A stretch of 64,000 bases of DNA from Anadara kagoshimensis (lineage: Eukaryota; Mollusca; Bivalvia; Arcoida; Arcidae). The DNA is taken from NCBI GenBank assembly GCA_021292105.1, contig CM037857.1:42649464-42713463 (forward strand), read 5' to 3'. A program made the position numbers and the translations under genes. The notes under the pieces are model-generated. The model did not search any database. It worked only from the letters and a program-made list of their open reading frames with translations, and had not been told where the DNA came from. This document shows, piece after piece, positions 24,101 through 56,654 of this stretch. Every line of letters starts with the position of its first letter. The first letter of the stretch is position 1.

Positions 24101-27100
24101 TAAAACTACTAAATTGTTCAATACTAAAATTCATTACAACAATACCAAAATTCATTACAAAAAACATTAGATTGTTCAATACTAAAATTCATTATAAAAA
24201 CTACTAAATTGTTCAATACTAAAATTCATTACAACAATACCAAAATTCATTACAAAAAACATTAGATTGTTCAATACTGACATTCATTATAAAAACTACT
24301 AAATTGTTCAATACTAAAATTCATTATAAAAACTACTAAATTGTTCAATACTAAAATTCATTACAACAATACCAAAATTCATTACAAAAACTACTACAGT
24401 CCAACCTTCCTTAAAGGCCACCTCTATATAAGGGCCACCTGCTTATAAAGGCCAGTAGAATTATATCCCATTTGTTCTTTATTCATATTATTTGAACCCA
24501 TAAAGGCCAGTTCTACTGGTTCCTTTGAGTGGCCTTTATAGATAGGTTTGACTGTAGATTGTTCAATACTAAAATTCATTACAAAAACTACAAGATTGCT
24601 CAACACTAAAATTCATTACAAAAGCCACAAGATTGCTCAATACCAAAATTCATTACAAAAGCCACAAGATTGCTCAATACCAAAATTCATTACAAAAGCC
24701 ACAAGATTGCTCAATACCAAAATTCATTACAAAAGCCACAAGATTGCTCAATACTAAAATTCATTACAAAAGCCACAAGATTGCTCAATACTAAAATTCA
24801 TTACAAAAGCTACTAGATTGCTCAATACCAAATTCATTACAAAAGCCACAAGATTGCTCAATACTAAAATTCATTACAAAAGCCACAAGATTGCTCAATA
24901 CTAAAATTCATTACAAAAGCTACTAGATTGTTCAATACCAAATTCATTACAAAAGCTACTAGATTGTTCAATACCAAATTCATTACAAAAGCTACTAGAT
25001 TGTTCAATACCAAATTCATTACAAAAGCCACAAGATTGCTCAATACTAAAATTCATTACAAAAGCTACTAGATTGTTCAATACCAAAATTCATTACAAAA
25101 GCTACTAGATTGCTCAATACCAAAATTCATTACAAAAGCTACTAGATTGTTCAATACCAAATTCATTACAAAAGCTACTAGATTGCTCAATACCAAAATT
25201 CATTACAAAAGCCACAAGATTGCTCAATACTAAAATTCATTACAAAAGCTACTAGATTGTTCAATACCAAAATTCATTACAAAAGCTACTAGATTGTTCA
25301 ATACCAAATTCATTACAAAAGCCACAAGATTGCTCAATACTAAAATTCATTACAAAAGCTACTAGATTGTTCAATACCAAAATTCATTACAAAAGCTACT
25401 AGATTGCTCAATACCAAAATTCATTACAAAAGCTACTAGATTGTTCAATACCAAAATTCATTACAAAAGCCACAAGATTGCTCAATACTAAAATTCATTA
25501 CAAAAGCTACTAGATTGTTCAATACCAAAATTCATTACAAAAGCTACTAGATTGTTCAATACCAAATTCATTACAAAAGCCACAAGATTGCTCAATACTA
25601 AAATTCATTACAAAAGCTACTAGATTGTTCAATACCAAAATTCATTACAAAAGCTACTAGATTGTTCAATACCAAAATTCATTACAAAAGCTACTAGATT
25701 GCTCAATACTAAAATTCATTACAAAAGCTACTAGATTGCTCAATACCAAATTCATTACAAAAGCCACAAGATTGCTCAATACTAAAATTCATTACAAAAG
25801 CCACAAGATTGCTCAATACTAAAATTCATTACAAAAGCTACTAGATTGTTCAATACCAAATTCATTACAAAAGCTACTAGATTGTTCAATACCAAAATTC
25901 ATTACAAAAGCTACTAGATTGCTCAATACCAAAATTCATTACAAAAGCTACTAGATTGTTCAATACCAAATTCATTACAAAAGCTACTAGATTGCTCAAT
26001 ACCAAAATTCATTACAAAAGCCACAAGATTGCTCAATACCAAAATTCATTACAAAAGCCACAAGATTGCTCAATACTAAAATTCATTACAAAAGCTACTA
26101 GATTGCTCAATACCAAAATTCATTACAAAAGCTACTAGATTGCTCAATACCAAAATTCATTACAAAAGCTACTAGATTGTTCATTACCAAGATTCATTAC
26201 ATAAGGATTAGCTCTGAAAAATGTGATAAATGGCTTCTCATTAACCAAAGGGCTCGTCATAATCAAATTCCATATACAGAATCAGAAGACTCAAATAAAA
26301 ATTGCTTTCATTTTGGCTAATGCTCACTAGGTGAGCGATACAGGCCCTATTGTTTTCTTAAAATATTTTGTTGAAATGTTTAAGGTAGTCACTATTTATC
26401 AGGTGAGCATATCAGGCCCAATGGGTTTCTTTTTTATGTATGTGATAGTAGTTAACTCAACTGGCAATAGCTTATGGGAGGCAAAGGTTGTGTTCATGCA
26501 TCCATGCATAAACTTTAATCCTTTTCTCTGAAACTGCTGAGGTAATTGAAACCAAATTTAGTGTTGAAAGTCCTCAGATGGTGTAGACTAAAGTTTGCAC
26601 AATGCGACCCCATCAGACATCCCAGATGGTCGCCATTACTTCAAATAGCAAAAATGCAAAAGTAGCCATTGTGCATTGAATTTTCAACTAATTTTGTTGT
26701 GGCCAATAAACTAGAGTAACATTAATAAACAGTACAAAAATACTAAGTTGTAATGTGTGGTTAATTATGTCAGTTATAAATCTGCAATAATCAGTATGAT
26801 CTTTTTTATTTTAGCTGAAGATGGGACAACTACAAAAATGCCAAGTTGTAATGTGTGGTTAATTATGTCAGTTATAAATCTGCAATAATCAGTATGATCT
26901 TTTTAGCTCACCTGAGCCAAAGGCTCAGATGAGCTATTGCAATCTATCACCGTCCGTCGTCCGTCGTGTGTAAACTTTACATTTTAATCTTCTCCTCCAA
27001 AACTACTGGGCCATATTTGATGAAACTTGGTGAATATCATGCCTGGGTAACAGCCTTTCAAAATTGTGTTCGGGGTTTGGCCACGCCCAACAAGATGGCC

Positions 27101-30100
27101 GCTGTTACTAAAAATAGCAAAAAGACAAAAAAAATCTTCTTCTCTGAAACCAAAAGGTGCAGGCAAATTTTGATTAGATATTTGGATTCAGCATACCTGG
27201 GAACATTAAAATTGTGTTTTTCATGACAATTAGACGAAAAATATGTTACGCGTTTTTTGCGTAAAATTATGTAATTTTTAAAATCAGACATTTATTGTTA
27301 TAACTTCATAACAGCTGAAGATAATTGTATGGAGTTTTCACTGTTGATCTTGTCTTGCAATTTTCTTCCAATTGATGTCAAGGTCGAAGGTCAAGGTCAT
27401 GTCCCAGTTTTTGACCTTTGATAAAAATTGCTATTTTTTTAACATTTCTTGTAATAATGGCGTAGGATTTTCAGTTATTTGTAGGTATTGACATGACAAT
27501 CATTTTGATACATAGATCAGGGTCATGGGTTCAAAGGTTAAGGTCACAGATGTCCAAGAATACCAAAATAGTTAATTATCTGCAAAACTATGAATTTTTT
27601 GTATAGGCATGTATATCAGAATATTGTAGATAATGGCACAATGGTCATTTTGATATATGAATAAAGGTCATGGGTTCAAAGGTCAAGGTCACAGATGTAA
27701 ACAAGTACTGAAATGGTTAATTATCTCAAAAACTATAAACATTTTGTATAGGCATGTATATTGGAATATTGTAGGTATTGGCCTAACGATCATTTTGATA
27801 TATGAATGAAGGTCATAGGTTCAAAGGTCAAGGTCATAGACACGAACAAATACTTAAATGGTTAATTATCTCAAAAACTATAAACTTTTTGTATAGGCAT
27901 GTATATTGAAATATTGTAGGTATTGGCCTAACGATCATTTTGATATATGAATCAAGGTCATAGGTTCAAAGGTCAAGGTCATAGCTGCAAACGAATATTT
28001 AAATGGTTAATAATCTCAAAAACTATAAACTTTTTGTATAGGCATGTATATTGGAATATTGTAGGTATTGGCCTAACGATCATTTTGATATATGAATCAA
28101 GGTCATAGGTTCAAAGGCCAAGGTCATAGCTGCAAACGAATATTTAAATGGTTAATTATCTCAAAAACTATAAACTTTTTGTATAGGCATGTATATTAGA
28201 ATATTGTAGGCATTTGCACAACGATCATTTTGATATATGAATGAAGTTCATATGTTCAAAGGTCAAGGTCATAGATGCAAACTAATACTTAAATGGTTAA
28301 TTATCTCAGAAACTATAAACTTTTTGTATAAGCATGTATATTAGAATATTGTAGGTATTGGCCTATCGATCATTTTGATATATGAATGAAGGTCATAGGT
28401 TCAAAGGTCAAGGTCATAGATGCAAATGAATACTTAAATGGTTAATTATCTCAAAAACTATAAACTTTTTGTATAGGCATGTATATTGGAATAAGGTACG
28501 TATTGGCCTAACGATCATTTTGATATATGAATGAAGGTCATAGGTTTAAAGGTCAAGGTCATAGAGGCGAACGAATACTTAAATGGTTAATTATCTCAAA
28601 AACTATAAACTTTTTGTATAGGCATGTATATTGGAATATTGTAGGCATTTGCACAACAATCATTTTGATATATGAATCAAGGTCATAGGTTCAAAGGTCA
28701 AGGTCATAGATGCAAACGAATACTTAAATGGTTAATTATCTCAAAAACTATAAACTTTTTGTATAGGTATGTATATGGGAATATTGTAGGTATTGGCCTA
28801 ATGCACATTTTAATATACAGATATCTTAGCTATTTATAAATAATATATTGTAGCTAGACTTTAAATATGTTATATATAGCATACTTATATAATAATTATT
28901 ATAATTAATTTGCAAAAATACTTGCATATTATTGGCCCTTACTGCTGAAAATTTTGATATTCTCTTGTATTAATGTCATTGACCATTGAACCTCTGCATA
29001 AGATATGTACTCTTCCTCAGGTGAGCGTTAAGGCCCATGGGCCTCTTGTTTATTTTAGCTGAAGATGGAACAACCACAAAAATGCCAAGTTGTAATGTGT
29101 GGTTAATTATGTCAGTTATAAATCTGCAATAATCAGTATGATCTTTTTTATTTTAGCTGAAGATGGGACAACTACAAAAATGCCAAGTTGTAATGTGTGG
29201 TTAATTATGTCAGTTATAAATCTGCAATAATCAGTATGATCTTTTTTATTTTAGCTGAAGATGGGACAACTACAAAAATGCCAAGTTGTAATGTGTGGTT
29301 AATTATGTCAGTTGTAAATCTGCAATAATCAGTATGATCTTTTTTATTTTAGCTGAAGATGGGACAACTACAAAAATGCCAAGTTGTAATGTGTGGTTAA
29401 TCATGTCAGTTATAAATCTGCAATAATCAGTATGATCTTATTTTGTTTTAGCTGAAGATGGAACAACCACAAAAATGCCAAGTTGTAATGTGTGGTTAAT
29501 CATGTCAGTTATAAATCTGCAATAATCAGTATGATCTTTTTTATTTTAGCTGAAGATGGGACAACTACAAAAATGCCAAGTTGTAATGTGTGGTTAATTA
29601 TGTCAGTTGTAAATCTGCAATAATCAGTATGATCTTTTTATTTTAGCTGAAGATGGGACAACTACAAAAATGCCAAGTTGTAATGTGTGGTTAATCATGT
29701 CAGTTATAAATCTGCAATAATCAGTATGATCTTTTTTATTTTAGCTGAAGATGGGACAACTACAAAAATGCCAAGTTGTAATGTGTGGTTAATTATGTCA
29801 GTTGTAAATCTGCAATAATCAGTATGATCTTTTTTATTTTAGCTGAAGATGGGACAACTACAAAAATGCCAAGTTGTAATGTGTGGTTAATCATGTCAGT
29901 TATAAATCTGCAATAATCAGTATGATCTTATTTTGTTTTAGCTGAAGATGGAACAACCACAAAAATGCCAAGTTGTAATGTGTGGTTAATCATGTCAGTT
30001 ATAAATCTGCAATAATCAGTATGATCTTATTTTGTTTTAGCTGAAGATGGGACAACTACAAAAATGCCAAGTTGTAATGTGTGGTTAATCATGTCAGTTA

Positions 30101-33100
30101 TAAATCTGCAATAATCAATATGATCTTATTTTGTTTTAGCTGAAGATGGAACAACCACAAAAATGCCAAGTTGTAATGTGTGGTTAATCATGGCTGTTAT
30201 AAGTCTTACCATGGTTGTTCTGGGATAATAGCTATGGCAATTCTCAGAAGTCAAGATCTAGTTACTGTTTATGAGGTAAATGTGTTTATTGTTGAATGTT
30301 AAGAGTATGAGTTACTGTATATCCAAATATTAAGTGCATATGGAAAATGCAAGAATAAAGTCCTACTTAATTTCCAACAACCTCAGAAAATATTGTCTAA
30401 ACTTGATACAAAATCTACTGATCCAAAAGTGAATTTAATTCTGTACATAGAGCAATTTTTGAAGTTTTTAACAAAACAACAAATAGAACTATGTCAAAAT
30501 TATGATACTTTAAAATCATAACTTTTATGAAATAAACAACAATGGCAGTTGAATTTTACTAATTCTTTATGAAATCTGTGGTAATTTTAATTTATTTTGA
30601 AGGGTATAACGTATTTTGGTGTTTAGGTATTCTGTCACATTTTAAAACTGATTTATCGATTAGATTTCACTTCTGTGAAAGGGAGATAAATTGTACAGTG
30701 CCATGTGCAAACTGAGCACATGGAATACAAATGTGGATTTTAAATACTTCATCGATTTTGAAGTAAAATTTACATGAAACGGGAATATTGTGAGTGGTAT
30801 TCAACAGTTTAATAAAAACTAGACTAAGCAGCAAATGATCCAGTTACATACAAACACTAGAATGAGCCCCATCATAGCGGTGGTCGGGTCTGCAAAAACT
30901 CTACTTTGTCTCTATCCAAAATGACAAACAATTGATAGAACTTTATTTAATTTTAATTACTTATCATCTTTTTCATATATTTATGGTAGAACTTTATTAA
31001 ATTTTAATTACTCATCATCTTTTTCATATATTTATGGAATTATTATTTTCTGCCGTTTTTACATAACAATACATGTACATGGTTTGGTACGTTGTTCATC
31101 ATCCGTCTGACTATGCATTGATCGACCCCTTTTCCCTATCAACCTTTTCAACTATTGGTTATGAAATGAAGAAGTATTAATTAATGATCAATGACAACTG
31201 TAACAAAACATTACATGGCTGCAATACGGGAGTACCAATAAAATGGAATATGGAAATTGTCACCGTTATATATAGACAGTTGTGACAAATGATCATTTGT
31301 TTATGATTATGTCATTTGTTGTGTTTTCTGATAATGTTTAATGTTTGTACCTGTAATTATGCCCATCAAATGACAAAACTTACACTGTCTTATTTACAAA
31401 TTTTGACATTTTATTTTAATGTGTTTCAGTATGGCGTTGTTTTTGATGCTGGTTCTTCACATACTGCACTGTTTGTGTATAAATGGAATGGTGAAAAATT
31501 TAACAACACAGCTCTAGCTAACCAGATTGGTTACAAAAAAGCAGGTATACATTTATATAGGCTGGGATTATGCTTTTAGTACTGTTAGATTTTAGCTCAC
31601 CTGACCAAAGGTCATATTGAGACTAGTTACTTTTGACCTACATATTGGGTCTAGTTAATTTTGACCTACATATTGGGACTAGTTACTGTTGACCTACATA
31701 TTGGGACTACTGTAGTTCTTTAAATAGTAGAATAGGTAATTTATGGCTACAAAAAATCTAAATTTCAATATCATAAAGAAAGATCTGTGAAATTATATTC
31801 AATACTAAAATACCTTTAAGAAAAAATGCTTATAGACTTTTGATAATTGTATACAATTCTGGGTATAGAGAAAAAATGAACGCTGTACAAAATACTTAGT
31901 CTGCAACGAAGTCACAAAACACCCAAATGTACCTCTTATTTATCCACATACCCCAAATGATGTCACATGTATATATATAGGTTACATAGAATCACACCTG
32001 TAAAAGGTGTTCAACAGGTGTGTTGATTATTTTAAGAGGGGTAAGCTCAAAACATAAAATTTGCATATGGGGCACTAAAGGTTATCTTCATAGTAAAAAA
32101 GATCTGTAAGAGACCACATTTTCCTCTATATAGCAGAAAACGTAAGACTTAATATTTTGGAATTATGTCAAATTTAGAAAGGAATTTTGATTGTATACCA
32201 CTTTTCATTATCTGATTTTTGCTAAGAATTCACAGAAACTTTTTATTGCAACAAATGATCTATTCTACTATATAAAGAACCACAGTAGTTACTTTTGACC
32301 TACATATTGGGACTAGTTACTTTTGACCTACATATTGGGACTAGTTACTGTTGACCTACATATTGGAACTAGTTACTTTTGACCTACATATTGGGTCTAG
32401 TTACTGTTGACCTACATATTGGGTCTAGTTACTTTTGACCTACATATTGGGTCTAGTTACTTTTGACCTACATATTGGGTAGTTACTTTTGACCTACATA
32501 TTGGGTCTAGTTACTGTTGACCTACATATTGGTCTAGTTACTGTTGACCTACATATTGGGTCTAGTTACTTTTGACCTACATATTGGGTCTAGTTATTGA
32601 CCTACATATTGGGTCTAGTTACTTTTGACCTACATATTGGGTCTAGTTACTTTTGACCTACGTATTGGGTCTAGTTACTTTTGACCTACATATTGGTCTA
32701 GTTACTTTTGACCTACATATTGGCACTAGTTACTTTGACCTACATATTGGGTCTAGTTACTTTGACCTACATTTGGGTCTAGTTACTTTTGACCTACATA
32801 TTGGGTCTAGTTACTGTTGACCTACATATTGGGTCTAGTTACTTTTGACCTACATATTGGGACTAGTTACTGTTGACCTACATATTGGGTCTAGTTACCT
32901 ATGACTATTTTCTAGTCTGAATGAGCAGTTAGTAATGAAAATATTAGAGCAAAACTAAGCGTCATTAAAAGATCTACTTGGATTGTAAAGAAAATATAAA
33001 TTGTATTCTAATAATTTAGGTACCACTGTACTGGTAAATGGCACCAGCCCAACTGCACTTGTACCACTTGTGCTATCTATACTAGTCCCAGATATCCTAT

Positions 33101-36100
33101 TGCCTCCCACTGTTGCAGGTAGTTTTTTCTTGATTTTATGTTTTTGAAAGGGTTCATAAAAATGGGGCTTTTCTGGGTTCAAATTAGATTTTAAAACAGA
33201 GAGTAGTGATTTCTTTCTCAGATTAGGGAGAAGTTTTTTCAAAACAGGGAGAAGTTTTTCTTCAGCAGAATTTTCACTTTAAATATGGTTGCTATTTTGT
33301 TCCTTCTACAGTTTTCAACTATTGACATGTTGGAAATTCCTATACTTTCCGCTTAAAAACTATGTAAATAATAGTACTACCAATACATACAGGAATAAAA
33401 TAGATGAACAGGTTTTATACCATACTTTATGGAAAAACAGTTGAAAAAAATTATTTTATTAAAATCAGGGTTAAGATTTTAAAACAGTTGACAGACTATA
33501 TCAAGTTGTATGATTACCTGAAACATGTGTAAAACAAACTTGATTCTGGTAAACGTTTAAGAAGTTTAATCTGTTTCACCTTAAAACTAACATATTGCAG
33601 TCCTTTAGGAATGGATACTGTAATGGGGTTCGCCGCTGTATCACATGATACACCCTAATGTTTTTGCGGAACTATTATCTTCATTGGATATGGAGTCCTA
33701 TCAGTCCACATTTTCCAGTAAAAACGACATTATACCAGGAGGTTATGATGTAAACATTTTCCAAAATGTCCCAAACAAACGTTAAGGGGTGTTGATCATA
33801 GGGAACAGCCGATGCATTTCATTGTCACAAATTAGCATTTCATCTCCACGAATAGAATATATCATTTTGCGAGTAAAAGTATTAATCCCCGCAAGTAGGT
33901 ATAAATATACTATTTTTATACCTTTACATTTATATGTTCTGTTTACCTGGTCAATCTGGCCAATTCATGGAACTTAAGTATGATTAATAAAATTTTACTC
34001 AAGGAGATGAAGTATACATTTATCACAGAGATGAAGTATACGTTTATCACAGAGATGAAGTATTACAATTCTTAAAAATTCACAGAGATGAAATGCAGCC
34101 GATACAGCAGCCAATCCCATTATCACTTTATCATTATCATTTTACAATTTTCAGAACCAGGTATATCCAGTTACGAAGCTGATCCTCAAGGAGTTGAACA
34201 AAATCTTAATACACTGTTAGATTATGCTAAAACAGTTGTACCCAAAGAAAGTCAGTCATCTACGTCTGTCTATCTGGGAGCAACAGCTGGAATGAGATTA
34301 CTAAGGTAGGACAGTTTTCATTGGAGGAAAACTCAGAAGAGTGGGGTAGAGTAATGGTGTTTTATAGCCTAGTCAAGATCTTTCACTTATATCGAGACGT
34401 CGCCAGCTATAGGCGAAAGTGCAGAAATTTTGCCTGTGCGTTGCGCTTATGGCATTATACAGCAGGGTTCTTTAGCATGCCAAGCCCACCGTGACACGGG
34501 ACCTCGTTTATTTTAAGTTCCCATCCAAAAGAACCATGATTTTCATTTCGTAATGCCGAGTGCTTGGCGAAAGAACATTTACTACCCACTTTCAAGTCTT
34601 GGGTCAGACCCCGGGGTTCGAACCCACGACCTTCCACTTACGGAGCGAGCACTCTACCAACTGAGCTACCGCAGGTGCTTATATATGAGACTGTCAGTTT
34701 ATGGAGGATGGAGGATTCAGGAATGCCCAGAGAAAATCACTGACCTTTGGCAAGAAAATGACAAACTTTCTTCATATTACTTCATGTATAGAATCACTGC
34801 CTCGAGTTATACAAAGTTTTGAATAGATTTGACCTTGACCTGCATTAAAGGTCACAGTGACCCTTTGAACAAAAAATGCTTAAAATGAATTTTGGTCATG
34901 ACCCAAAAGGAATATATTCATCAAACTTTATTTATAAAATCAGTTTAAGTTCTGCAAATAGATATGTCCTTAGCCGTGACCTTGTACATAAAAATGCTCA
35001 AATGACTTCTTAATGAACCAAAAAGTATATAATTATCAAACTTCATATAAAGAATCAGCATGTTGAGTTCTACAAAATTTGTGAAAAGTTTTTACCTTGA
35101 CCATCATTCAAGGTCACAGTGACCTTATTTCAAAAAAGCTATACATGACTTTTTATTAACCAGGAGGCTTGTCATCATCAAATTCTATATATAGAATCAG
35201 AAAACATCCACCAAAAATGCTTTGATTTTTGGCTAATGCACACCAGGTGAGTGATACAGGCCCTATTGGGCCTTTTGTAATATAAACCTATTGCGAATTT
35301 AAATTTGTATGGCAGTGTATGGTAAAATTCATACTATACTTAAACCTGTCTTAAAAGGCTACCCAGATGAATTGGCACAATTGGTCATTATAGGCAGGTG
35401 GTCTTTAGATACAGTTTCTTATAACATGAATAAAGAGCAATTAAGAATGGAATTTTAATTGCCTTTAAAAATAGGTAACCCTTGTACTGAGGTGATCTTA
35501 AATGCAGATTTGACTGTAGTTGAACAGTAATATTTATTAAGTTTTTCTGATTATGGTTCAGTAAAGATATATTTTTTCAGGGCAGTCAATGACACCATCA
35601 GTAGTGCCATAATGAATGTTACCAGAGACGCAATTAAAAACTCCCCATTTGAGTTTTCTAATGACACTGTAGACGCTAGGATATTATCTGGTGGTGAAGA
35701 GGGCATGTATTCATGGGTTACCAGTAATTATTTCGCAGGAAGATTTGGTGTGGTAAATATGAAATATATATTAGCCCCCAATTTAACAATCATTCCTTAA
35801 CTGTGATTTTCCTCAACTTTAATCTAGCAGAATTTTAACAATCTCTTTTGAAACTATGAATGAACATTTTTGACAATACTAAAGAGAGATGTTATAGGCT
35901 TAAAGTGATCTTCAAAATCACACCTTAAATTCATGAACACCTTAATTGACAAAATTATTAACATTTCAAATTTGCCAGATTTAAGTTTAAAAAATTTTAA
36001 TGAATGAATGATTGTGTAAACTAGGACCAGTTATAAGAAAAGATTTATTAGTAACAAGTGGTTCCTGTCAAACCAATCTTCAGGGTTTTCCCTGACGCAC

Positions 36101-39100
36101 AAAAAGCTGTGTTTTGCCGTGTTTTTATCACCAATGTCCCTTAAAAAATCATCAAATGTGCCCATGATGGCACAATCTTGAATGAACGCATGATCCGGTA
36201 ATATTCCGATTCAGTTTATTTTTCGTTTTTTGTTTTAATCCAAGCTCAAGCTCTGAAACAGCGCCGACCTAGCTTCGTATGTCGCAAGGTAGACAAGTCA
36301 TAAAAGAGATACAAATGTTGGCTGCTGTGCAGAGCTTGGTCCAAGCTAGTTAACCCGTATATGCAAAGCATTTTTAGCGATATTTTGCACAAATGCTGTC
36401 ATGTCATCCAAAAACTATTTAGTATTTTTGACCAAGAATTACACAAACGTACTGACGGTGAAAAATCAGATTCTGAAAATGCTGTCAGTCTGTCTGACCC
36501 TAAAAAAATTTAATATTTCAGAAATTCTCCGCCCGCTGAAAAAGCACAAGACGCCCACGAGTAAAATGACATGACAAAATTTAATTATTTCCATTATTTA
36601 AAATTATTTCACCAGTATCACATCTGCTGTGTCTATAATTAATTTCGATAAACTTTTTTGGCCAGTTCATCTTCCTTTTGCTTTAAACAACTTTGTTGTT
36701 ATGTCCCCCGAAAATTTTATTTATCACTCAAAATTTTATGGTAAGGGAACATGTGTCCCCAAGTTTTAAAAACCAAGAGAAATCCCTGAATCTTCAATTG
36801 GGAAGTGGGAGTGGGGGTAACAGAGAGCTTTTGCTGAGTGGTTAGACAATTTTACACATGTAAAGTGGGTATGGAATTGATGAATATATACAACTGTTTT
36901 GTTAACTGTATCGAAAGTTTGAATTTTTTTTAACCTTGACCTTTGATCTGTATTTACTATTTTGTGAACACACTGAGATTTCCAACATTCAGAACCATGG
37001 AGAACTCGTAATAAATAACACACTGAGATTTCCAACATTCAGAACCATGGAGAACTTGTAATAATGAAAGAGTAGAGTTGAGAAATGGTGTTTAATGTCC
37101 CAGTCAAGAATATTTCACTTATATCGAGACATTGCCAGCTATACGCGAAGGTGCAGAAATTTTGGCTTTGTTGCGCTGATGGCATTATACAGCAAGGTTC
37201 TTTAGCGTGCCAAGCATACCGTGACACTGGACCTCGTTTATTTCAAGTTCCCATCCGAACCTTGATTTTCATTTCGTAATGCTGAGTGCTTGGCAAAAGA
37301 ACAGTCACTACCCACTTTCAAGTCTTGGGTCAGACAGGGTTTGGGGTTGAATCCATGACCTACCACTTAGGGAGCAAGCACTCCTCCAACTAAGCTACTG
37401 CAGTGGTCATTATAACTATAGAGGAATATAGGTCTGTAGATAACTCGCCTAAAGTGCAGGGGGTCATGGGTTCAATCCCCAGTCTGGCCCTTCAGTGTTC
37501 ATGGATTTGATTGGTTGGTTTGTCATTTGGCTGGGTTTTGTAAAAAACACATAGCAGAAAAATATTATTACATCATATTACTTCCAGTATTACTGTATAT
37601 GTTATCAGGTCAGCATTCCCAGTTTTGACATTGAAAAATTACAAAATTTTTACATTTTAGTGATATTTCAAATGTCTAAATTATCCCTGTCACAATCTTA
37701 GCTTTTTAAAGGTTGGTGATCTTCTCCAGGTACCCCAGTTTCCACCACTATCAAGTACTGACTGCTTCTAAATAAGTGAAAGAATGTTGACTGGGGTGTA
37801 AAACACCATTACACCACTCTATTATATGTGAAAGATATACATTTATATTAAGGCTGTGACGAATACCCTGATACCCATTCACGGTTAGGGAATTGTCTGT
37901 ACCTGGGTAACAAATAGTTTACCTGTTGCCCGTTAAATCATGTATCATTAATGTAGACCTAAAATAAAATGTATATAAGTTCTTGACTTTCATTCAAAAT
38001 GACACGACATGTCAGTAATCGTAAACATTGTATATACTTCTGTCAGTTTGTGGCACACGAGGCAAGTATCGGAACACCTTGAGGAAGTACATTCAACCCA
38101 GTTATACAAACTACGGTTCCAAACGGTAATATCCATCTTATTATCGGGGAACCTTTATAAGCAACTTTCAACATGACAGAGAGAAAATCGGAAATGGAAA
38201 TTACTTTATTCAAGAAAATTAACAAAACAATGAAAGTTATTGATTCTATTAAACCTTACAAAACAATACCTATGTAGGGTAACTCATATGAGCAATTGGC
38301 ATGCATAATTAAGGTTTCATCAGAGGCGGGTTTTATGGTAGGTTACTATAGTATACCGATTGCTGCAGATTTATCTGCAATTTAGACATTTGTTTATGGT
38401 AAAATCATCTATATAGATAAATAATCATTTATTTAATAATATGTTTATTCTGGTTATTTATTCACGGTTTGTGAAATAGATTCTTAATTGAAATGTGTGG
38501 AAGTTGAAAAGCATCGGGTACTCGGTACGGGTCGGGTACAAGATTTTGGGTACCCAGGTACAGAATTCCCTACCCGTCAGAGCCCTAATTTCTATAGTTT
38601 AAAAATTTTACTTAACTTGAATTTCAGAAAAACCCAAAACAGTTTAGTGCTGCCGAGGTAACAAAAAGTTTATTGAATTTCAGAAAAACCCAACACAGTT
38701 TAGTGCTGCCAAGGTAACAAAAAAATTATTTACTAACAAGGCAGACAGCACTGTAGGTGCCCTTGACCTTGGTGGAGCATCAACACAGATCACATTTTAT
38801 CCAGGAAGTTCTGTAAATATTCCGGTGAAGTACAGAGGAGATTTAGTGTTATATGGCATGAACTACACTGTATACACAAATAGCTATCTGTGTTACGGTA
38901 TCAATGAAATCACCAGGAAGTACAAGGCATTGTTGGTAAAAGTAAGTACTGTATCAATGAAATCATTAGGAAGTACAAGGCATTGTTGGTAAAAGTAAGT
39001 ACTGTATCAATAAAATCACCAGGAAGTACAAGGCATTGTTGGTAAAAGTAAGTACTGTATCAATGAAAGCACCAGGAAGTACAAGGCATTGTTGGTAAAA

Positions 39101-42100
39101 GTAAGTACTGTATCAATAAAATCACCAGGAAGTACAAGGCATTGTTGGTAAAAGTAAGTACTGTATCAATGAAAGCACCAGGAAGTACAAGGCATTGTTG
39201 GTAAAAGTAAGTACTGTATCAATGAAATAACCAGGAAGTACAAGGCATTGTTGGTAAAAGTAAGTACTGTATCAATGAAATCACCAGGAAGTACAAGGCA
39301 TTGTTGGTAAAAGTAAGTACTGTATCAATAAAATCACCAGGAAGTACAAGGCATTGTTGGTAAAAGTAAGTACTGTATCAATGAAATTACCAGGAAGTAC
39401 AAGGCATTGTTGGTAAAAGTAAGTATTGTATCAATGAAATCACCAGGAAGTACAAGGCATTGTTGGTAAAAGTAAGTACTGTATCAATGAAATCACCAGG
39501 AAGTACAAGGCATTGTTGGTAAAAGTAAGTACTGTATCAATGAAATCACCAGGAAGTACAAGGCATTGTTGGTAAAAGTAAGTACTGTATCAATGAAAGC
39601 ACCAGGAAGTACAAGGCATTGTTGGTAAAAGTAAGTACTGTATCAATGAAATTACCAGGAAGTACAAGGCATTGTTGGTAAAAGTAAGTACTGTATCAAT
39701 GAAATCACCAGGAAGTACAAGGCATTGTTGGTAAAAGTAAGTACTGTATCAATAAAATCACCAGGAAGTACAAGGCATTGTTGGTAAAAGTAAGTACTGT
39801 ATCAATGAAAGCACCAGGAAGTACAAGGCATTGTTGGTAAAAGTAAGTACTGTATCAATGAAAGCACCAGGAAGTACAAGGCATTGTTGGTAAAAGTAAG
39901 TACTGTATCAATGAAATCACCAGGAAGTACAAGGCATTGTTGGTAAAAGTAAGTACTGTATCAATGAAAGCACCAGGAAGTACAAGGCATTGTTGGTAAA
40001 AGTAAGTACTGTATCAATGAAATCACCAGGAAGTACAAGGCATTGTTGGTAAAAGTAAGTACTGTATCAATGAAAGCACCAGGAAGTACAAGGCATTGTT
40101 GGTAAAAGTAAGTACTGTATCAATGAAATTACCAGGAAGTACAAGGCATTGTTGGTAAAAGTAAGTACTGTATCAATGAAATCACCAGGAAGTACAAGGC
40201 ATTGTTGGTAAAAGTAAGTACTGTATCAATAAAATCACCAGGAAGTACAAGGCATTGTTGGTAAAAGTAAGTACTGTATCATTGAAAGCACCAGGAAGTA
40301 CAAGGCATTGTTGGTCAAAGTAAGTACTGTATCAATGAAAGCAAAAGGAAGTACAAGGCATTGTTGGTAAAAGTAAGTACTGTATCAATGAAATTACCAG
40401 GAAGTACAAGGCATTGTTGGTAAAAGTAAGTACTGTATCAATGAAATCACCAGGAAGTACAAGGCATTGTTGGTAAAAGTAAGTACTGTATCAATAAAAT
40501 CACCAGGAAGTACAAGGCATTGTTGGTAAAAGTAAGTACTGTATCAATGAAAACACCAGGAAGTACAAGGCATTGTTGGTAAAAGTAAGTACTGTATCAA
40601 TGAAAGCACCAGGAAGTACAAGGCATTGTTGGTAAAAGTAAGTACTGTATCAATGAAAGCACCAGGAAGTACAAGGCATTGTTGGTAAAAGTAAGTACAG
40701 TATCAATGAAATCACCAGGAAGTATAAGGCATTGTTGGTAAAAGTAAGTACTGTATCAATGAAATCACCAGGAAGTACAAGGCATTGTTGGTAAAAGTAA
40801 GTACTGTATCAATGAAATTACCAGGAAGTACAAGGCATTGTTGGTAAAAGTAAGTACTGTATCAATGAAAGCACCAGGAAGTACAAGGCATTGTTGGTAA
40901 AAGTAAGTACTGTATCAATGAAATTACCAGGAAGTACAAGGCATTGTTGGTAAAAGTAAGTACTGTATCAATGAAATTACCAGGAAGTACAAGGCATTGT
41001 TGGTAAAAGTAAGTACTGTATCAATGAAATCACCAGGAAGTACAAGGCATTGTTGGTAAAAGTAAGTACTGTATCAATGAAATCACCAGGAAGTACAAGG
41101 CATTGTTGGTAAAAGTAAGTACTGTATCAATGAAATCACCAGGAAGTACAAGGCATTGTTGGTAAAAGTAAGTACTGTATCATTGAAAGCACCAGGAAGT
41201 ACAAGGCATTGTTGGTCAAAGTAAGTACTGTATCAATGAAAGCAAAAGGAAGTACAAGGCATTGTTGGTAAAAGTAAGTACTGTATCAATGAAATTACCA
41301 GGAAGTACAAGGCATTGTTGGTAAAAGTAAGTACTGTATCAATGAAATTACCAGGAAGTACAAGGCATTGTTGGTAAAAGTAAGTACTGTATCAATGAAA
41401 TCACCAGGAAGTACAAGGCATTGTTGGTAAAAGTAAGTACTGTATCAATGAAATCACCAGGAAGTACAAGGCATTGTTGGTAAAAGTAAGTACAGTACTG
41501 TAAATTTCAATTTTTATAAAGCGATATAGGTATTAGACCCATTGTTTGCTAAAGCTTGTTCTGGACAGAAAAATATTCATCTTTGTACTTGCACTGTTAC
41601 CAGTGTAAGATTCTAATATGTTAACTTCTGTTCATCCAGAGTACCAGTAATTCTCCAAAACTATTTTACAAAACTTGGTGCAAAGAATCAAGGTTGATAG
41701 ATAACATATCATTAACTGGATTTGGTTTGCTCATTTTTGTGGGAGTTATGGCCCTTTGAACATTAGTACAAATCACAAAAAAGTACCTAATGACAGGGAT
41801 ACTAATTCACTAAATCGTCTTGTGGATACTGCACTGTACCTAATAACAGGGATACTAATACACTAAATCAGCCTGTGGATACTGCACTGTACCTAATAAC
41901 AGGGATACTAATACACTAAATCAGCCTGTGGATACTGCACTGTACCTAATGACAGGGATACTAATACACTAAATCAGCCTGTGGATACTGCACTGTATAT
42001 TATCTTGATTACAGCACTAATGGTAATGACATCTACAGTCAGTCATGCCTTAAAGGTAACCTCTATATAAGGGCCACCTGCTTTTAAAGGGTATTTAAAT

Positions 42101-45100
42101 TTTATCCAAATTGCTCTTTATTCATGTTATTGGAACCTTTATATAAGGGCCTACTTCTCATAAAAGCCACTTTCACAGGTTCCTTTGTGTGACCTTTATA
42201 GACAGGTTTGATTGTATTTATATTGTTGTCTATTACAGAGTCAGTCTTTCAATGAGACTATTATAGACCCATGTGGACCTAAAGACAAAGAGTGGGTAGA
42301 AGATTATACAGATATATTTGAAGCCCCCTGTACCAAGCAAGCAAATCTGCCTGATATTATTGTGAAGGTTAGTATAACAAGCCACCAAAGGTTTGTCCTT
42401 GAAAGTGTTTTAGGTGACCTTTGTGGCAGAGTGGTCTTAAGCATGTGCTAACAGATCACAGCACTTCTCACCAGCTTGGTTCAAATTCCACTCCAGACAG
42501 TTTCTATTGCGAGAAAGATTGTCAGTTCCCTTGCTGAAGGTCAGTTTCCCCCACAATCCTAGAGCTGATCACCTCAGTTTCCTTGCTGAAGCTTGGTTTC
42601 TTCCACAATTCCGGAACTGATCACCTTATTTCGCTTGCTGAAGGTCGGTTTCTTCCACAATTCTGGAACTTGTCACCTCAGTTCCCTTGCTGAAGCTTGG
42701 TTTCTCCCACAATTCTGGAACTTATCACCTCAGTTTGCTTACTGAAGGTCGGTTTCTCCCACAATTCTGGAACTTATCACCTTATTTCGCTTACTGAAGG
42801 TCGGTTTCTCCCACAATTCTGGAACTTATCACCTTATTTCGCTTACTGAAGGTCGGTTTCTCCCACAATTCCGGAACTTATCACCTTATTTCGCTTACTG
42901 AAGGTCGGTTTCTCCCACAATTCCGGAACTGATCACCTTATTTCGCTTACTGAAGGTCGGTTTCTCCCACAATTCTGGAACTTATCACCTTATTTCGCTT
43001 ACTGAAGGTCGGTTTCTCCCACAATTCCGGAACTTATCACCTTATTTCGCTTGCTGAAGGTCGGTTTCTCCCACAATTCTGGAACTTATCACCTCAGTTC
43101 CCTTGCTGAAGCTTGGTTTCTCCCACAATTCTGGAACTTATCACCTCAGTTTGCTTACTGAAGGTCGGTTTCTCCCACAATTCTGGAACTGATCACCTTA
43201 TTTCGCTTACTGAAGGTCGGTTTCTCCCACAATTCTGGAACTTATCACCTTATTTCGCTTACTGAAGGTCTGTTTCTCCACAATTCTGGAACTGATCACC
43301 TTATTTCGCTTGCTGAAGGTCGGTTTCTTCCACAATTCTGGAATTATCACCTCAGTTCCCTTGCTGAAGCTTGGTTTCTCCCACAATTCTGGAACTTATC
43401 ACCTCAGTTTGCTTACTGAAGGTCGGTTTCTCCCACAATTCCGGAACTGATCACCTATTTCGCTTACTGAAGGTCGGTTTCTCCCACAATTCTGGAACTT
43501 ATCACCTTATTTCGCTTACTGAAGGTCGGTTTCTCCCACAATTCTGGAACTGATCACCTTATTTCGCTTGCTGAAGGTCGGTTTCTTCCACAATTCTGGA
43601 ACTTATCACCTCAGTTCCCTTGCTGAAGCTTGGTTTCTCCCACAATTCTGGAACTTATCACCTCAGTTGCTTACTGAAGGTCGGTTTCTCCCACAATTCT
43701 GGAACTGATCACCTTATTTCGCTTACTGAAGGTCGGTTTCTCCCACAATTCTGGAACTTATCACCTCAGTTTGCTTACTGAAGGTCGGTTTCTCCCACAA
43801 TTCTGGAACTGATCACCTTATTTCGCTTACTGAAGGTCGGTTTCTCCCACAATTCTGGAACTGATCACCTTATTTCGCTTACTGAAGGTCGGTTTCTCCC
43901 ACAATTCTGGAACTGATCACCTTATTTCGCTTACTGAAGGTCGGTTTCTTCCACAATTCCAGAACTTATCACCTCAGTTTGCTTACTGAAGGTCGGTTTC
44001 TCCCACAATTCTGGAACTTATCACCTTATTTCGCTTACTGAAGGTCGGTTTCTCCCACAATTCTGGAACTTATCACCTTATTTCGCTTACTGAAGGTCGG
44101 TTTCTCCCACAATTCTGGAACTTATCACCTTATTTCGCTTACTGAAGGTCGGTTTCTCCCACAATTCTGGAACTTATCACCTTAATTCGCTTACTGAAGG
44201 TCGGTTTCTCCCACAATTCTGGAACTTATCACCTTATTTAGCTTACTGAAGGTCTGTTTCTTCCACAATTCCAGAACTGATCACCTCAGTTCCCTTGCTG
44301 AAGGTCAATTCCTCCACAATTTTGGAGTTGATCACCTCAGTATAAGTGAATGAATCTTGACTGGGGTTAAAAACCCTACTCCACATCTGTTTTAGTAATT
44401 CAATATCAATGACTTCACTCTTGTTCATTGTGATCCATCAAAGTTGATTAAAACCAATTTTTATACGCCCGTCATATGACGGGACGTATTATGTTACGGT
44501 GCTGTCCGTCCGGGCGGGGGGCGTCTGTTAACAATTTGTCTTCCGTTCAATAGAGACCACAAACATTTATGGATTCAAATGAAATTTGGTATACAGCTTT
44601 ACCATGGTAATACCTTGTGCAAGTTCGAATTACAACTTTTTCGGATTATTTTTGGAGGAGTTATGCCCCTTTTTAACTTAGAAATTTTTGTATGTATGAC
44701 CATGTGGTTTCCGATCATTAGAGCCTACAACTATTTATGGATTCAAATGAAATTTGGTATACACATTTATGATGTTAATATCTGGTGCAAGTTTGAATTA
44801 CAACTTTTTTCGGATTATTTTGGAGGAGTTATGCCCCTTTTTAACTTAGAAATTTTTGTATGTATGACCATGTGGTTTCCGATCATTAGAGCCTACCACT
44901 ATTATGGATTCAAATGAAATTTGGTATACACATTTACGATGTTAATATCTGGTGCAAGTTGGAATTACAACTTTTTCGGATTATTTTGGAGGAGTTATGC
45001 CCTTTTTAAACTTAGAAATTTTGTATGTATGACCATGTGGTTTCCAATCATTAGAGCCTAGCGCTATTTATGGATTCAAAATGAAATTTGGTATACACAT

Positions 45101-48100
45101 TTACGATGTTAATATCTGGTGCAAGTTCGAATTACAACTTTTTCGGATTATTTTTGGAGGAGTTATGCCCCTTTTTTAACTTAGAAATTTTTGTATGTAT
45201 GACCATATGGTTTCCGATCATTAGAGCCTACAACTATTTATGGATTCAAATGAAATTTGGTATACACATTTACGATGTTAATATCTGGTGCAAGTTGGAA
45301 TTACAACTTTTTCGGATTATTTTTGGAGGAGTTATGCCCCTTTTTTAACTTAAAAATTTTTGTATGTATGACCATGTGGTTTGTATTCCATTCAGTAGAC
45401 AATACAAACATGGATTTAAATAAAATTTGTTATACAGTTACACCTTAATCATGGTAATATCTCGTGCAAATTTGAATTACAACTTTTTTGGGTTAAGAGT
45501 TATGGCCCGAACACGGAGTTGGTAATATATTTTTACATACATATATCCTAGTTGTACTTATACTTCTCAGTAATATGGAAAGGAAACCAACACCCCTAAG
45601 GTACTAATTATGGCTATTATTATTCTTAGTGGATACCTATGGTATTCAGTAGAGTTCCATAAGTCAGTGTAATTAATTAAATAAATAAAGTATGGCTCTA
45701 AACCCAAAATTCCGGATAGTAGCAGCAAAAAGGGAAATCACCACCGCCAATCATGAAACTTACACCAGGAAAGAACGGAACTACAGCCATACCAATAAAA
45801 AATCAAGAAGAATTTGAATTACCTCCACATTTAATCGATGATCCAACGTCTATAAACTACAAAACCTTAGGATATCAATCTAATTCTAACACATCCTTGA
45901 ATAATAAATTTAATGAAATCATAAAGGAATTAAATTTAGACTATAAAGATGTCAACCAAGAAATTGAATCCTACAGTACAGTTAAATCTACGATGCTCCT
46001 ATCAACGGAAGAAAATACAGTATGCTTAGATGAACTTCCTCCTTCGCTAACAACGAGGGAAGTATATGTTTACAGTGTTTATGGAATATTCAGCGGACAA
46101 TATAAATAACAACAAACAATCAGGTTAATTTTCTCTTTTTTTTTTTTGAATTTTAATGATTTTAATAAGTGAACAATATTACAAACTGTTAAATTACAAT
46201 AATACTTACAAGTGTAAACAAACAGTACAGTTACTAACAACACAATCAAAACAATCAATATCACGTGATTATACTTAGCCAATTTTGAGCCATTTATGTA
46301 GCCATTTTTTGTACTTCAAGGAAATTGAAATTGTATTACATGTATATCAGTCCTGATGACGGCAGCCTAGCTGTCGAAACATGTCGACAATAAATCATAT
46401 TAGCATCAGTTATTCTAAGTGTTGAGAGCCATACTTTATTTATTTAATTAATTATACTTCTCAGTAAATAGTACTACTCGATCAATATAACACGGGCGTA
46501 TAATGCTCCGCTCGGCGGTGCTCTTGTTACACTGGAAATGGGACTAACATATTCTATAAAAGTACAGTCAAAACTCGTTATCTCGAAATTCACGGGAGGA
46601 AGAAAAATACTTCGTCTTACCCGAAGTTCAACTTAACAGAAGTTGGGGTGTTGACGAAATTCGAAACAATGGGAAGTAACACAAGTTTTGTACCCTGCAA
46701 TATGTGATCGGAATATTTTAAAGTATGTATGACAGAAACTCACCGTAACTTACAAGGTTACATTGAGATCACCGTCAAATTATATTAAACATGAGATTGG
46801 GCATGACAGAAACTCACCGTAACTTACAAGGTTACATTGAGATCACCGTCAAATTATATTAAACATGAGATTGGGCATGACAGAATCTCACCATAACTTA
46901 CTAGGTTACATTGAGATCACCGTCAAATTATATTAAACATGAGATTTGGCATGACAGAATCTCACCGTAACTTACAAGGTTACATTGAGATCACCGTCAA
47001 ATTATATTAAACATGAGATTGCGTTGACAGATCCATTGAGATAACCATCATTATCGGGTTCTTGTCGATGTTGTATTGAAAATAAGACACAACAAAAAAA
47101 TAGTTTACATACATTTATATCTCACTAAACATCTACGTGACAATGAATACACAATAAATACACAATGTGCATGTATAATTTACAGATTGAAAAAAGCAGG
47201 TAGATAGTTCAACATATTGAACAGGTTGGGTAATGATAAATGTTTCGAAATTCTTGTTTATATGGGGAATTTATAATTTGTCACGAAAAACTCATAATTA
47301 ACAGAAGTGGAGAGATTTTTATTTTTAAAGATTAAACGTCACACGCCAAATATCTGTTATCTTTTTTTTCTGAAAGATAGCATTCTGTAATTTCTAATAA
47401 CCAAAGAGTTTTACCTGTAGTAAATACACGTGATTAAACACCAAGCAGACGTCGATTATTCGGCTTTCACCTAACAAAGTTTAATCACAACCATACTGAC
47501 TAATACTCACTGAATGGCTTCAGAAACCCCTTCAATTAATTGTTTATTTACCAACAGTTAAGTCAAGATATTCTGTACAGGTGTGAGTACAAACAATAGG
47601 TTATTTTACCTTTGAAAAATTGGACATAACGAGATTAATATCTATTGAAAATTTACAGACGGACCTGGAATTTACTTGGACATATCCGATATTTCAAGTT
47701 ATCAGAATTAGACTTAAATGGAGTATTTTACGTTGTAATATATAGCGACTAGTTTCGGACCAAATAAAAAGCTTCGAGATATCTAAAGTTTCGACTTATC
47801 TGATTTCGAGATAACGAGTTTCGATTGTATAATAGTTTCTCAGTTTTGGTTTGTATAGAAGCCATCCCCATTACTTCTTTGATTTATTGTATATATAATT
47901 ACAGCTTTCATTAATTTAACAGTTGATAAATCTTCAAAAAGTAAGCACTGGAGATAAAATCTTTGATTGACTTTAATTTGAGTTGGATTGTGGAGAAAAC
48001 CGACCTTTGACAAGTGAACTGACAAACTTTCTTGCACTAGAAACTCCCAAAGTTCGAGTCAAATCTAGTGAGAGGCAGTTAGTTCATGGACAAAGGGAGA

Positions 48101-51100
48101 TAATATGATGATTTATTCATTACTTGGGAGTTCAAATGAATTTAATGCATAATGCTCAGATGAGCTATTGCAATCTATCTTCGTCCGTCGTGCGTCGTGT
48201 GTAAACTTTACATTTCAATCTTCTCCTCCGAAACTACTGGGCCATATTTGATGAAACTTAGTGATTATCATGCCTAGGTAACAGCCTTTCAAAATTGTGT
48301 TCGGGGTTTGGCCACGCCAAGCAAGATGGCCGCTGTTACTAAAAATAGCAAAAAGACAAAAAAATCTTCTTCTCTGAAACCAAAAGGTGCAGGCAAATTT
48401 TGATTGGATATTTGGATTCAGCATACCTGGGAACATTAAAATTGTGTTTTTCATGAAAATTAGACGAAAAATAGGTTACGCGTTTTTTGCGTAAAATTAC
48501 GTAATTTTTAAAATGAGACATTTATTGTTATAACTTCATAACGGCTGAAGATAATTGTATGGAGTTTTCACTGTTGATCTTGTCTTGCAATTTTCTTCCA
48601 ATTGATGTCAAGGTCGAAGGTCAAGGTCATGTCCCAGTTTTTGACCTTTGCTATTTTTTTTAACATTTCTTGTGATAATGGTGTAGGATTTTCAGTTATT
48701 TGTAGGTATTGACATCACGATCATTTTGATACATAGATCAGGGTCATGGGTTCAAAGGTCAAGGTCACAGATGTCCAAGAATACCAAAATAGTTAATTAT
48801 CTGCAAAACTATGAATTTTTTGTATGGCATGTATATCAGAATATTGTAGGTAATGGCACAATGGTCATTTAGATATATGAATAAAGGTCATGGGTTCAAA
48901 GGTCAAGGTCGCAGATGTAAACAAGTACGAAATAGTTATTATCTCAAAAACTATAAACTTTTTATATAGGCATGTATATTGGAATATTGTAGGTATTGGC
49001 CTAACGCTCATTTTGATATATGAATGAAGGTCATAGGTTCAAAGGTCAAGGTCAAAGACGCGAACGAATACTTAAATGGTTAATTATCTCAAAAACTATA
49101 AACTTTTTGTATAGGCATGTATATTAAAATATTGTAGGTATTGGCCTAATGATCATTTCGATATATGAATGAAGGTCATAGGTTCAAAGGCCAAGGTCAT
49201 AGCTGTGAACGAATATTTAACTGGTAATTATCTCAAAAACTAATTTTTTGTATAGGCATGTATATTAGAATATTGTAGGCATTTGCACAACAATCATTTT
49301 GATATATGAATGAAGTTCATAGGTTCAAAGGTCAAGGTCATAGATGCAAACTAATACTTAAATGGTTAATTATCTCAGAAACTATAAACTTTTTGTATAG
49401 GCATATATATTAGAATATTGTAGGTATTGGCCTATCGATCATTTTGATATATGAATGAAGGTCATAGGTTCAAAGGTCAAGGTCATAGATGCAAATGAAT
49501 ACTTAAATGGTTAATTATCTCAAAACTATAAACTTTTTGTATAGGCATGTATATTGGAATATTGTAGGCATTTGCACAACAATCATTTTGATATATGAAT
49601 GAAGGTCATAGGTTTAAAGGTCAAGGTCATAGATGCAAATGAATACTTAAATGGTTATTATTAAAACTATAAACTTTTTGTATAGGCATGTATATTAGAA
49701 TATTGTAGGTATTGGCCTATCGATCATTTTGATATATGAATGAAGGTCATAGGTTTAAGGTCAAGGTCATAGATGCAAATTAATACTTAAATGGTTAATT
49801 ATCTCAAAAACTATAAACTTTTTGTATAGGCATGTATATTGGAATATTGTAGGCATTTGCACAACAATCGTTTTGATATATGAATGAAGGTCATAGGTTC
49901 AAATGTCAAGGTCATAGATGCAAACGAATACTTAAATGGTTAATTATCTCAAAAACTATAAACTCTTTGTATAGGCATGTATATTGGAATATTGTAGGTA
50001 TTAGCCTAATGCACATTTTAATATACGGATGTTTTAGCTGTTTATAAATAATATATTGTAGCTAGACTTTAAATATGTTATATATAGCATACTTATATAA
50101 TAATTATTATAATTAATTTGCAAAAATACTTGCATATTATTGGCCCTTACTGCTGAAAATTTTGATATTCTCTTTTATTAATGTCATTGACCATTGAACC
50201 TCTGCATAAGATATGTACTCTTCCTCGGTGAGCGTTAAGGCCCATGGGCCTCTTGTTTTCTTTTTTACTTGACATTACTTAAATATTTTTTATGCCCCAT
50301 TGTACTTTTTTTCACCATCGTCATCTTTGTTTTCAGTTTAATGGCAAAAATGTAAATACAAGTAAGTGTATCTTGCTCTACCTAGCGGTGTTCTTGTTTT
50401 AAACTTTGTAAGACTGTTGGGGGGAGATGGAATTCTGTCAAGGAAGTGTCAGGATATTTTCAGGGAGTTTCGAATGAATTGAAATGTGCTTACTACATCA
50501 TACACAGATACCAGTATATAAACATGTACAGTCCAACCTGCCTCAAGTCCACTCTGTATAAGGGACACCTGCTTATAAAGGCTGATATGATTGTATCCCA
50601 ATTGTTTTTTATTCATATTATTTGAACCTGTGTATAAAGGCCAAATTTACAGGTTCCCTTGGATGGCCTTTATAGACAGGTTTGACTGTTTAAGTTAATG
50701 ATTTTATATCAGAGTTTTGTAATTTAATATTTTTAGAACACCACATCGACTTATAAATTTAAAGGAAGTAGCAATTCTACTGAATGTCAGAACATGGTCA
50801 GACAACTGTTTAACTTCAGCACATGTTCTTACAAACATTGTGGATTTAACGGCGAATATCAACCTGAAGTAAATGGACAATATTATGTAAGTTATTGCAT
50901 TATCAATTTGCAGTGGTTTCAATAAAGCCAGCAAGGTGATGGAAATTGTCTGCTACTTTGGATTTGGATTAAGTTTGTCATCTACTTCTACTACTGTAGG
51001 AACCACTCTGTTTGTGACAGTGAAATACTATTCATATTCATAGAAAATCCAATAAATTTGAATAAAGATTGATATTTTTCACTTACTTGTACCTAGTCAT

Positions 51101-55857: not shown

Positions 55858-56398
55858 TTCAGAATTTAGGTCAGTTCACAAGTCTGAGGTCTATGTCACC
55901 TTTGAGTGATCAGTTAGGCCTGGTCAGTTCACAAGTCTGAGGTCTATGTCACCTTTGAGTGATCAGTTAGGCCTGGTCAGTTCACAAGTCTGAGGTCTAT
56001 GTCACCTTTGAGTGATCAGTTAGGCCTGGTCAGTTCACAAGTCTGAGGTCTATGTCACCTTTGAGTGATCAGTTAGGCCTGGTCAGTTCACAAGTCTGAG
56101 GTCTATGTCACCTTTGAGTGATCAGTTAGGCCTGGTCAGTTCACAAGTCTGAGGTCTATGTCACCTTTGAGTGATCAGTTAGGCCTGGTCAGTTCACAAG
56201 TCTGAGGTCTATGTCACCTTTGAGTGATCAGTTAGGCCTGGTCATTTCACAAGTCTGAGGTCTATGTCACCTTTGAGTGATCAGTTAGGCCTGGTCAGTT
56301 CACAAGTCTGAGGTCTATGTCACCTTTGAGTGATCAGTTAGGCCTGGTCAGTTCACAGTCTGAGGTCTATGTCACCTTTGAATGATCAGTTAGGCCTG
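55858..56398. repeat. 53-bp minisatellite, about 10 units
   Basis: Near-identical units of cagttcacaagtctgaggtc + tatgtcacctttgagtgatc + agttaggcctggt. Very low divergence suggests recent expansion. Confidence 0.93.
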
Positions 56399-56654
56399 GA
56401 ATATATTCTGTATACCTCATATGTTACTATTGTTTTGACCCAGCCTGGTAAGAATTTCAGGAGATGGGCATCATAATGGATTTTTATGGACTATATGTAC
56501 ATGCCAACTAAACTGTTCCTTTCCATTGACATTTGTGATATATTTAAATAATTTTTTTTAAATATGTGTCTCATATTGTTACTGTTCATATACCCCACTT
56601 TGAAGAAGAGGGGGGTTTACTGCTTTACCCGTCCGTTCGTCTGTCCGAAAAAAA

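Follow-up and report, generated by a model that had tools for sequence, protein, structure and literature searches.

The stretch of DNA analysed here, called the window throughout, is 64,000 nucleotides (nt) long and comes from the mollusc Anadara kagoshimensis (assembly GCA_021292105.1, contig CM037857.1, positions 42,649,464 to 42,713,463). It contains a plus-strand GDA1/CD39 ectonucleotidase gene of the ENTPD1/2/3/8 type, and within that gene the end of exon 5, together with the 5' splice site (donor) that follows it, is repeated as a long tandem array. Nine exons of the gene, from 31430 to 54054, join into a single open frame of 490 codons with GT/AG signals at the junctions. The Pfam profile PF01150 (GDA1_CD39) matches the protein at 331.7 bits (E 7.7e-99) over positions 10-421 of its 423, and PDB structures named ectonucleoside triphosphate diphosphohydrolase (NTPDase) 2 and 1 match it with E values of 1e-78 to 2e-77, the best being NTPDase 2 (E 1.2e-78). 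Membrane segments were judged by eye. A C-terminal hydrophobic segment lies in exon 10, and an N-terminal membrane segment is encoded by a further exon, called here the membrane exon, whose reading frame is broken in the window and runs through only in a second gene copy elsewhere in the assembly. The exons, and the intron and array that concern us most, are as follows.

30140-30275, plus strand: membrane exon, with the start codon and the N-terminal membrane segment, from reading of the sequence
31430-31544, 34155-34305, 35581-35752, 38684-38941 and 42239-42367, plus strand: the first five of the nine coding exons, from the open frame
50737-50886, 52055-52186, 53038-53172 and 53824-54054, plus strand: the other four coding exons, from the open frame
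38684-38941, plus strand: exon 5, 258 nt, phase 0 at both ends, with the authentic donor AAA/GTAAGTAC (the slash marks the splice position)
38942-42238, plus strand: intron 5, 3297 nt, with the donor array taking up about three quarters
38894-41497, plus strand: the donor array; Tandem Repeats Finder (TRF) gives period 53, 49.1 copies and 0% indels

The unit of the array is the last 48 bp of exon 5 plus GTAAG, and there are 49 units, each exactly 53 bp long. The authentic end of exon 5 with its GTAAG is itself unit 1 (38894-38946), and the remaining 48 units are intronic. When the array is cut into 53-mers, 12 distinct unit types are seen, with 0-3 differences from the consensus. All 49 donors read AAA/GTAAGTA, and the nine positions of the donor are invariant. 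Units 27-29 form a block of variants that reappears at units 44-46, which is 17 units or 901 bases further along, and the array therefore grew at least partly by multi-unit copies. Chance is impossible as the origin of such a structure; the donor array is a real and clean observation. TRF and the decomposition into 53-mers both confirm the original prediction that the exon's own donor had been amplified into 49 units of 53 bp, with the predicted position of 38885..41490 now corrected to 38894-41497.

What the additional donors would do to the transcript was read from the frame. Donor 1 is the sole stop-free choice among the 49. Any of donors 2-49 would give an exon of 311 to 2802 nt containing a stop, and all 48 run into the same stop after 16 added codons. 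It had been claimed that only the first donor keeps the frame; taken literally this is not so, since for 16 of the donors 2-49 the added length is divisible by three, yet the stop precedes in each of those cases and the outcome stands for all 48. The array donors pair with the 5' end of U1 at a computed -7.0 kcal/mol. A perfect site would give -14.0, and the gene's other donors range from -5.3 to -9.2 (the membrane exon's figure having been calculated with a register shift of one base). The donors had been described as equally strong; they are equal to one another, but their strength is middling.

Repeats are also present at four acceptors of the gene, in 2, 2, 5 and about 12 copies; the original prediction did not mention them. 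They bring the boundaries affected in this single gene to five.

29044-30206, plus strand: membrane-exon acceptor repeat, 98-bp unit in about 12 copies (TRF and sequence), each unit spanning the acceptor and the first part of the exon
38617-38730, plus strand: exon-5 acceptor repeat, 56-bp unit in two copies (TRF), the downstream copy taken as the working acceptor
51985-52073, plus strand: exon-8 acceptor repeat, 46-bp unit in two copies
53717-53825, plus strand: last-exon acceptor repeat, five copies of TTTACAG/AT in a repeat of 21-29 bp

Use of the upstream acceptor at exon 5 would shift the frame and reach a stop after 29 codons, and the upstream copy at exon 8 would reach one after 7 codons. 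The membrane-exon repeat holds 12 copies of TTTTAGCTGAAGATGG, the final one adjoining the exon body. The last-exon repeat extends merely about 2 nt into the exon, and two of its four decoy acceptors would be in frame and insert 7 or 25 residues before the normal stop is reached. Judged by reading frames, the working site is the copy adjoining the non-repeated part of the exon, which means the first donor and the last acceptor. The frame starts at the exon-adjacent acceptor for exons 5, 8 and 10, and for the membrane exon it does so in the second gene copy only.

That second copy was found by searching the assembly (1.115 Gb, 36 contigs). It lies 252-266 kb downstream, with its nine exons at C1:42932883-42969048. 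The coding sequences differ at 3 of 1473 bases, all of them synonymous third positions, so that none of the 490 residues differs, and long, largely unique stretches differ by about 0.3-0.8% substitutions (mismatches at 15/4791, 46/8216 and 17/2183 bases). The membrane exon differs by two one-base indels, one of which falls in the coding part and breaks the frame in the window copy. The repeats have diverged far more. The donor array of the second copy is 7.4 kb long, with 137 copies by TRF and 149 units when they are located by an anchor, so that the two assembled copies, at 49 and about 137-149 units, are about threefold apart. The donors of the 149 anchor-found units read GTAAGT in 105 cases, GTGAGT in 36, GTAAGA in five and something else in three. 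Unit spacings are 53 bp (118 times), 30 bp (26 times) and a few other values, which means that indels are present. In a comparison of 11 unit types from the window copy with 33 from the second, two types are common to both.

Other arrays of the locus behave in the same way: window against second copy, a 98-bp repeat has 11.8 and 4.5 copies, a 50-bp repeat 2 and 8, and a 52-bp repeat 35 and 122. The two-copy acceptor repeats at exons 5 and 8 are unchanged in number. The donor array is a hypervariable minisatellite, and its lack of indels in the window is not general to the locus. The exactness of the units had been taken as a sign of recent or homogenised expansion; that the array moves fast is supported, but the lack of indels is confined to the window copy, the second having 30-bp and other spacings. 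Since the array is present in both copies and lengths are unequal elsewhere in the locus as well, it is probably older than the parting of the two gene copies and has probably turned over rapidly afterwards.

Homology to the second copy starts at the first base past a gap of 1000 Ns (42922517-42923516). Of 87 myosin matches, 20 chosen by eye can be arranged into ten pairs. The members of each pair lie on the same chromosome, 150-1350 kb apart, score nearly equally and are in some cases oppositely oriented; three of the pairs come from the gene adjoining the locus and seven from C5, C15, C16 and C18. In the list of NTPDase matches several loci are likewise paired; C17 and C1:45.9 Mb have unpaired ones. 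The gap at the start of homology and the paired genes make un-purged haplotypes the likely cause, and the second copy is probably the other allele. Over C1:42649464-43025351 the gene, an adjoining NTPDase paralogue and a myosin gene each occur twice, with the N gap opening the second set, and by gene positions the distance between the two NTPDase genes is some 57 kb greater in the first set than in the second. The adjoining paralogue has no array at exon 5 in either of its loci (L039, L040).

Whether exon edges attract arrays was judged from arrays scoring 100 and up, and counts in the window were compared by rotation or by independent placement. The membrane exon was entered as 30138-30274 in these counts and in the controls, an effect too small to matter. 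Five of 48 array ends fall inside exons in the window (P about 0.01 by rotation, 0.004 by independent placement). When the donor array is left out, the count is 4 of 46 in the window (P 0.03) and 4 of 30 in the gene span (P 0.10), and when the borderline last-exon case is left out as well it is three (P 0.11). Under a strict rule, 4 of 19 splice sites lie inside arrays, with no excess over rotation (P 0.86). Given the weak excess once the donor array is removed (P 0.03 to 0.11), and no excess for splice sites themselves, a targeting of splice sites by arrays is not claimed.

Arrays cover 37% of the window. The figures for two sets of control loci are 2.5% and 4.0%, and adjacent stretches have 2-16%. 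An array touches the edge of 4 of 10 exons here and of 1 of 53 control exons (Fisher P 0.0016); without exon 5 the count here is 3 of 9 (P 0.008). In the controls the match borders served as exon borders. They comprised three groups. NTPDase exons from elsewhere numbered 16, a single locus being kept for each presumed pair, out of 30 loci minus the 8 belonging to the two copies of this gene; myosin gave 25 exons, spread over 20 stretches taken from 87 matches; and ABC transporters gave 12 of 80 matches, with flanks of 300 bases. The six presumed second copies of the NTPDase controls had no array overlap at their exons, and one NTPDase control, L031, has an array of score 68, under the cut and with the AG outside it. 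The lone control with an edge array is L063, where an AT-rich acceptor region scores 101. At positions 413-490 of L063, a myosin exon, a 40-bp AT-rich sequence is present twice and a second TACAG stands just upstream of the acceptor, possibly a small case of the boundary duplications discussed below. The likeliest account of the counts is that the locus is rich in repeats and that arrays which happened to include an exon edge were tolerated. There is no clear sign of selection to keep or to lose the decoys, given that the donors are invariant in the window and vary in the second copy.

Further large tandem arrays of the window are found at 10429-14583 (39 bp, 108 copies), 16435-19176 (76 bp, 36 copies), 22514-26205 (37 bp), 42526-44337 (52 bp, 35 copies) and 55869-56399 (53 bp, 10 copies), and some of the large arrays differ greatly in copy number in the second gene copy. 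A 53-bp period is found in three arrays of the locus whose sequences are unrelated. A mobile-looking element, composed of 145-bp repeats and ending in the common tail ...GGCCCATGGGCCTCTTGTTT, is present twice, at 27479-29043 and 48700-50260, and the first copy adjoins the membrane-exon acceptor array. Other open frames are at 61128-61526 (minus strand, 132 codons) and, inside an intron of the gene, at 45723-46109 (plus strand, 128 codons).

The sequences at the two borders of the donor array suggest how it may have begun. Unit 1 reads TACGGTATC, like the exon, in both gene copies and carries TACGGT. The other 48 units of the window copy carry TACTGT in 46 cases and a variant in two. The intron just past the end of the array reads TACTGTAAATTTC in both gene copies and contains TACTGTA. 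The TACTGT in the units and the TACTGTA past the array end together fit a template switch between TACGGTA and TACTGTA. A first duplication of the 53-bp stretch across the exon-5 end and its donor may have arisen in this way, between the exon's TACGGTA and the intron's TACTGTA, and such a switch would explain both the border of the unit and the T. Repeated slippage or unequal exchange then most likely enlarged the array on its intron side, where new copies would cost little while splicing stayed with the copy beside the exon body.

Exon 5 has long introns on both sides (2931 nt before it and 3297 nt after it), and for this reason the exon-adjacent donor should win. Splice sites would then be paired across the exon, the donor nearest the acceptor would be favoured, and the remaining donors would be inert intron. 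If splicing is confined to the first donor, the length of the array would therefore be near neutral and could drift quickly. A first-donor preference had been put forward in the original prediction, and it would fit the long introns; PMC9225289 reports that, where exon-defined minigenes offered two identical donors, only the upstream donor was used. On this evidence the array is read as a minisatellite born at an exon-intron boundary and tolerated by ordinary splice-site choice, of the kind called a mirage in amphioxus, and we give this reading a probability of roughly three in four.

Several points weigh against it. The use of donor 1 is itself something we infer from sequence. In PMC9225289 the upstream preference among donors of near-equal strength is genome-wide only a bias, at 60% over all classes. 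That paper also cites older work in which the winning donor was the one closest to the downstream acceptor, and it reports that acceptors flanked by long introns kept an upstream preference, though a weakened one. The four repeated acceptors here need their downstream copy and are harder cases in the light of that weakened preference. The second copy could be a genuine recent duplication, and the broken membrane-exon frame in the window might be a null allele or an assembly error.

The alternative that survives best, though it is unlikely, is that the array tunes expression by its length: a few transcripts would use the decoys, gain a stop and undergo nonsense-mediated decay, so that more units would mean less enzyme. 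Each decoy does yield a stop in the first added unit, ahead of later junctions; the decoys are intact (49/49 in the window copy; in the second, GTAAGT or GTGAGT in 141 of the 149 units located by the anchor); and unit number is about threefold apart between the copies. But rapid turnover of the array alone would also leave the decoys intact, amphioxus mirages are reported in PMC3902484 to yield no aberrant mRNA, and the exclusive use of the first of two identical donors in exon-defined minigenes (PMC9225289) points the same way. A stronger form, in which array length is an allelic rheostat that sets the unproductive share and the duplications at 5 of the 19 examined splice sites are kept as regulatory, is quite improbable.

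It is also very doubtful that the window copy is a decaying pseudogene whose splice sites are free to scramble. In its favour is the one-base difference that breaks the membrane-exon frame, but the nine further exons, their splice signals and the 490-codon frame are all intact, all three coding differences between the copies are synonymous, and the membrane exon reads through in the second copy.

An array whose length was invented or distorted by the assembler deserves little credence. Kilobase arrays are difficult to assemble, and this assembly apparently has duplicated haplotypes and possibly one-base errors, but the array occurs in two separately placed copies, whose borders agree and whose internal variants differ, and a 53-bp periodicity kept over 49 units, with structured variants that include a recurring block, is the mark of tandem growth.

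Least credible is that the array holds U1 small nuclear ribonucleoprotein (snRNP) on the intron, either sequestering it or blocking early polyadenylation (telescripting): 49 of the 86 GT sites in the gene span (30138-54054) that pair at least as well as donor 1 do fall in the array, but these donors pair with middling strength (-7.0 kcal/mol, where a perfect site would reach -14.0), the nascent RNA of one gene is unlikely to titrate an abundant snRNP, and no evidence was found for the titration that the original prediction had raised.

The reading as a boundary-born minisatellite has a close precedent. PMC3087553 and PMC3902484 describe amphioxus mirages in Adh3, troponin C, the globins BflGb6 and BflGb9, and PGBD5: exon-intron boundaries are duplicated there in the manner of a minisatellite, and regular splicing is reported to be undisturbed. 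Copy number at the BflGb6 mirage differs by haplotype, 6 against 3 (PMC3902484), and the Adh3 mirage shows somatic length instability (PMC3087553). As in what is described there, the unit in Anadara spans the exon-intron boundary, in the donor array and in the four acceptor repeats; splice signals are present in many copies (49/49 here, 141/149 in the second copy); and 5' and 3' boundaries are both affected. The array fits a mirage in its boundary-spanning unit, its repeated splice signals and, judged from frames, its exon-adjacent authentic site. In amphioxus copy number differs between haplotypes; here it differs between two gene copies that may be haplotypes, to go by the N gap and the paired genes. 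The differences from the amphioxus cases are that the host is a mollusc, that the unit count is 49 and about 149, where BflGb6 has 3-6, and that five boundaries are affected in one gene. Protein similarity also indicates a mollusc: a muscle-myosin fragment of the assembly scores 404-407 bits against the PDB chains 2ec6, 1dfk and 1b7t and 394 against 3i5f, which are scallop and squid chains, and at most 344 against chains named Myosin-7.

Two further systems are related. Introns can be gained by tandem genomic duplication, in which a proto-splice site is duplicated (Rogers 1989, as cited in PMC3087553), and PMC3087553 also proposes mirages as raw material for this process. The Anadara array likewise consists of tandem copies carrying splice signals within a gene, but it shows no sign of a new intron; intron 5 has become longer on its 5' side. 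In tandem duplicates of earthworm metallothionein the coding regions are identical and a minisatellite-bearing intron has diverged (PMC12783039). The pattern of an invertebrate intron with minisatellites, a conserved coding sequence and diverged repeats is the same, but the available part of that paper does not say that the earthworm units span a splice site. In the open-licence literature, in a search aimed only marginally at molluscs, no report of mirages in molluscs was found. What is new here is the phylum, the copy number and the concentration in one gene; the kind is already known from lancelets.

Rules of splice-site choice rest largely on two-site constructs, and this gene offers a natural experiment in which one exon has 49 near-equal donors and a near-identical one has about 149. 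All donors beyond the first are unproductive in the copy that was examined, and the gene also has repeated acceptors, a class of site to which the cross-exon rule is known to apply only weakly. For this ectonucleotidase gene of Anadara kagoshimensis it means that a splice site can reside in a hypervariable minisatellite with the coding frame preserved.

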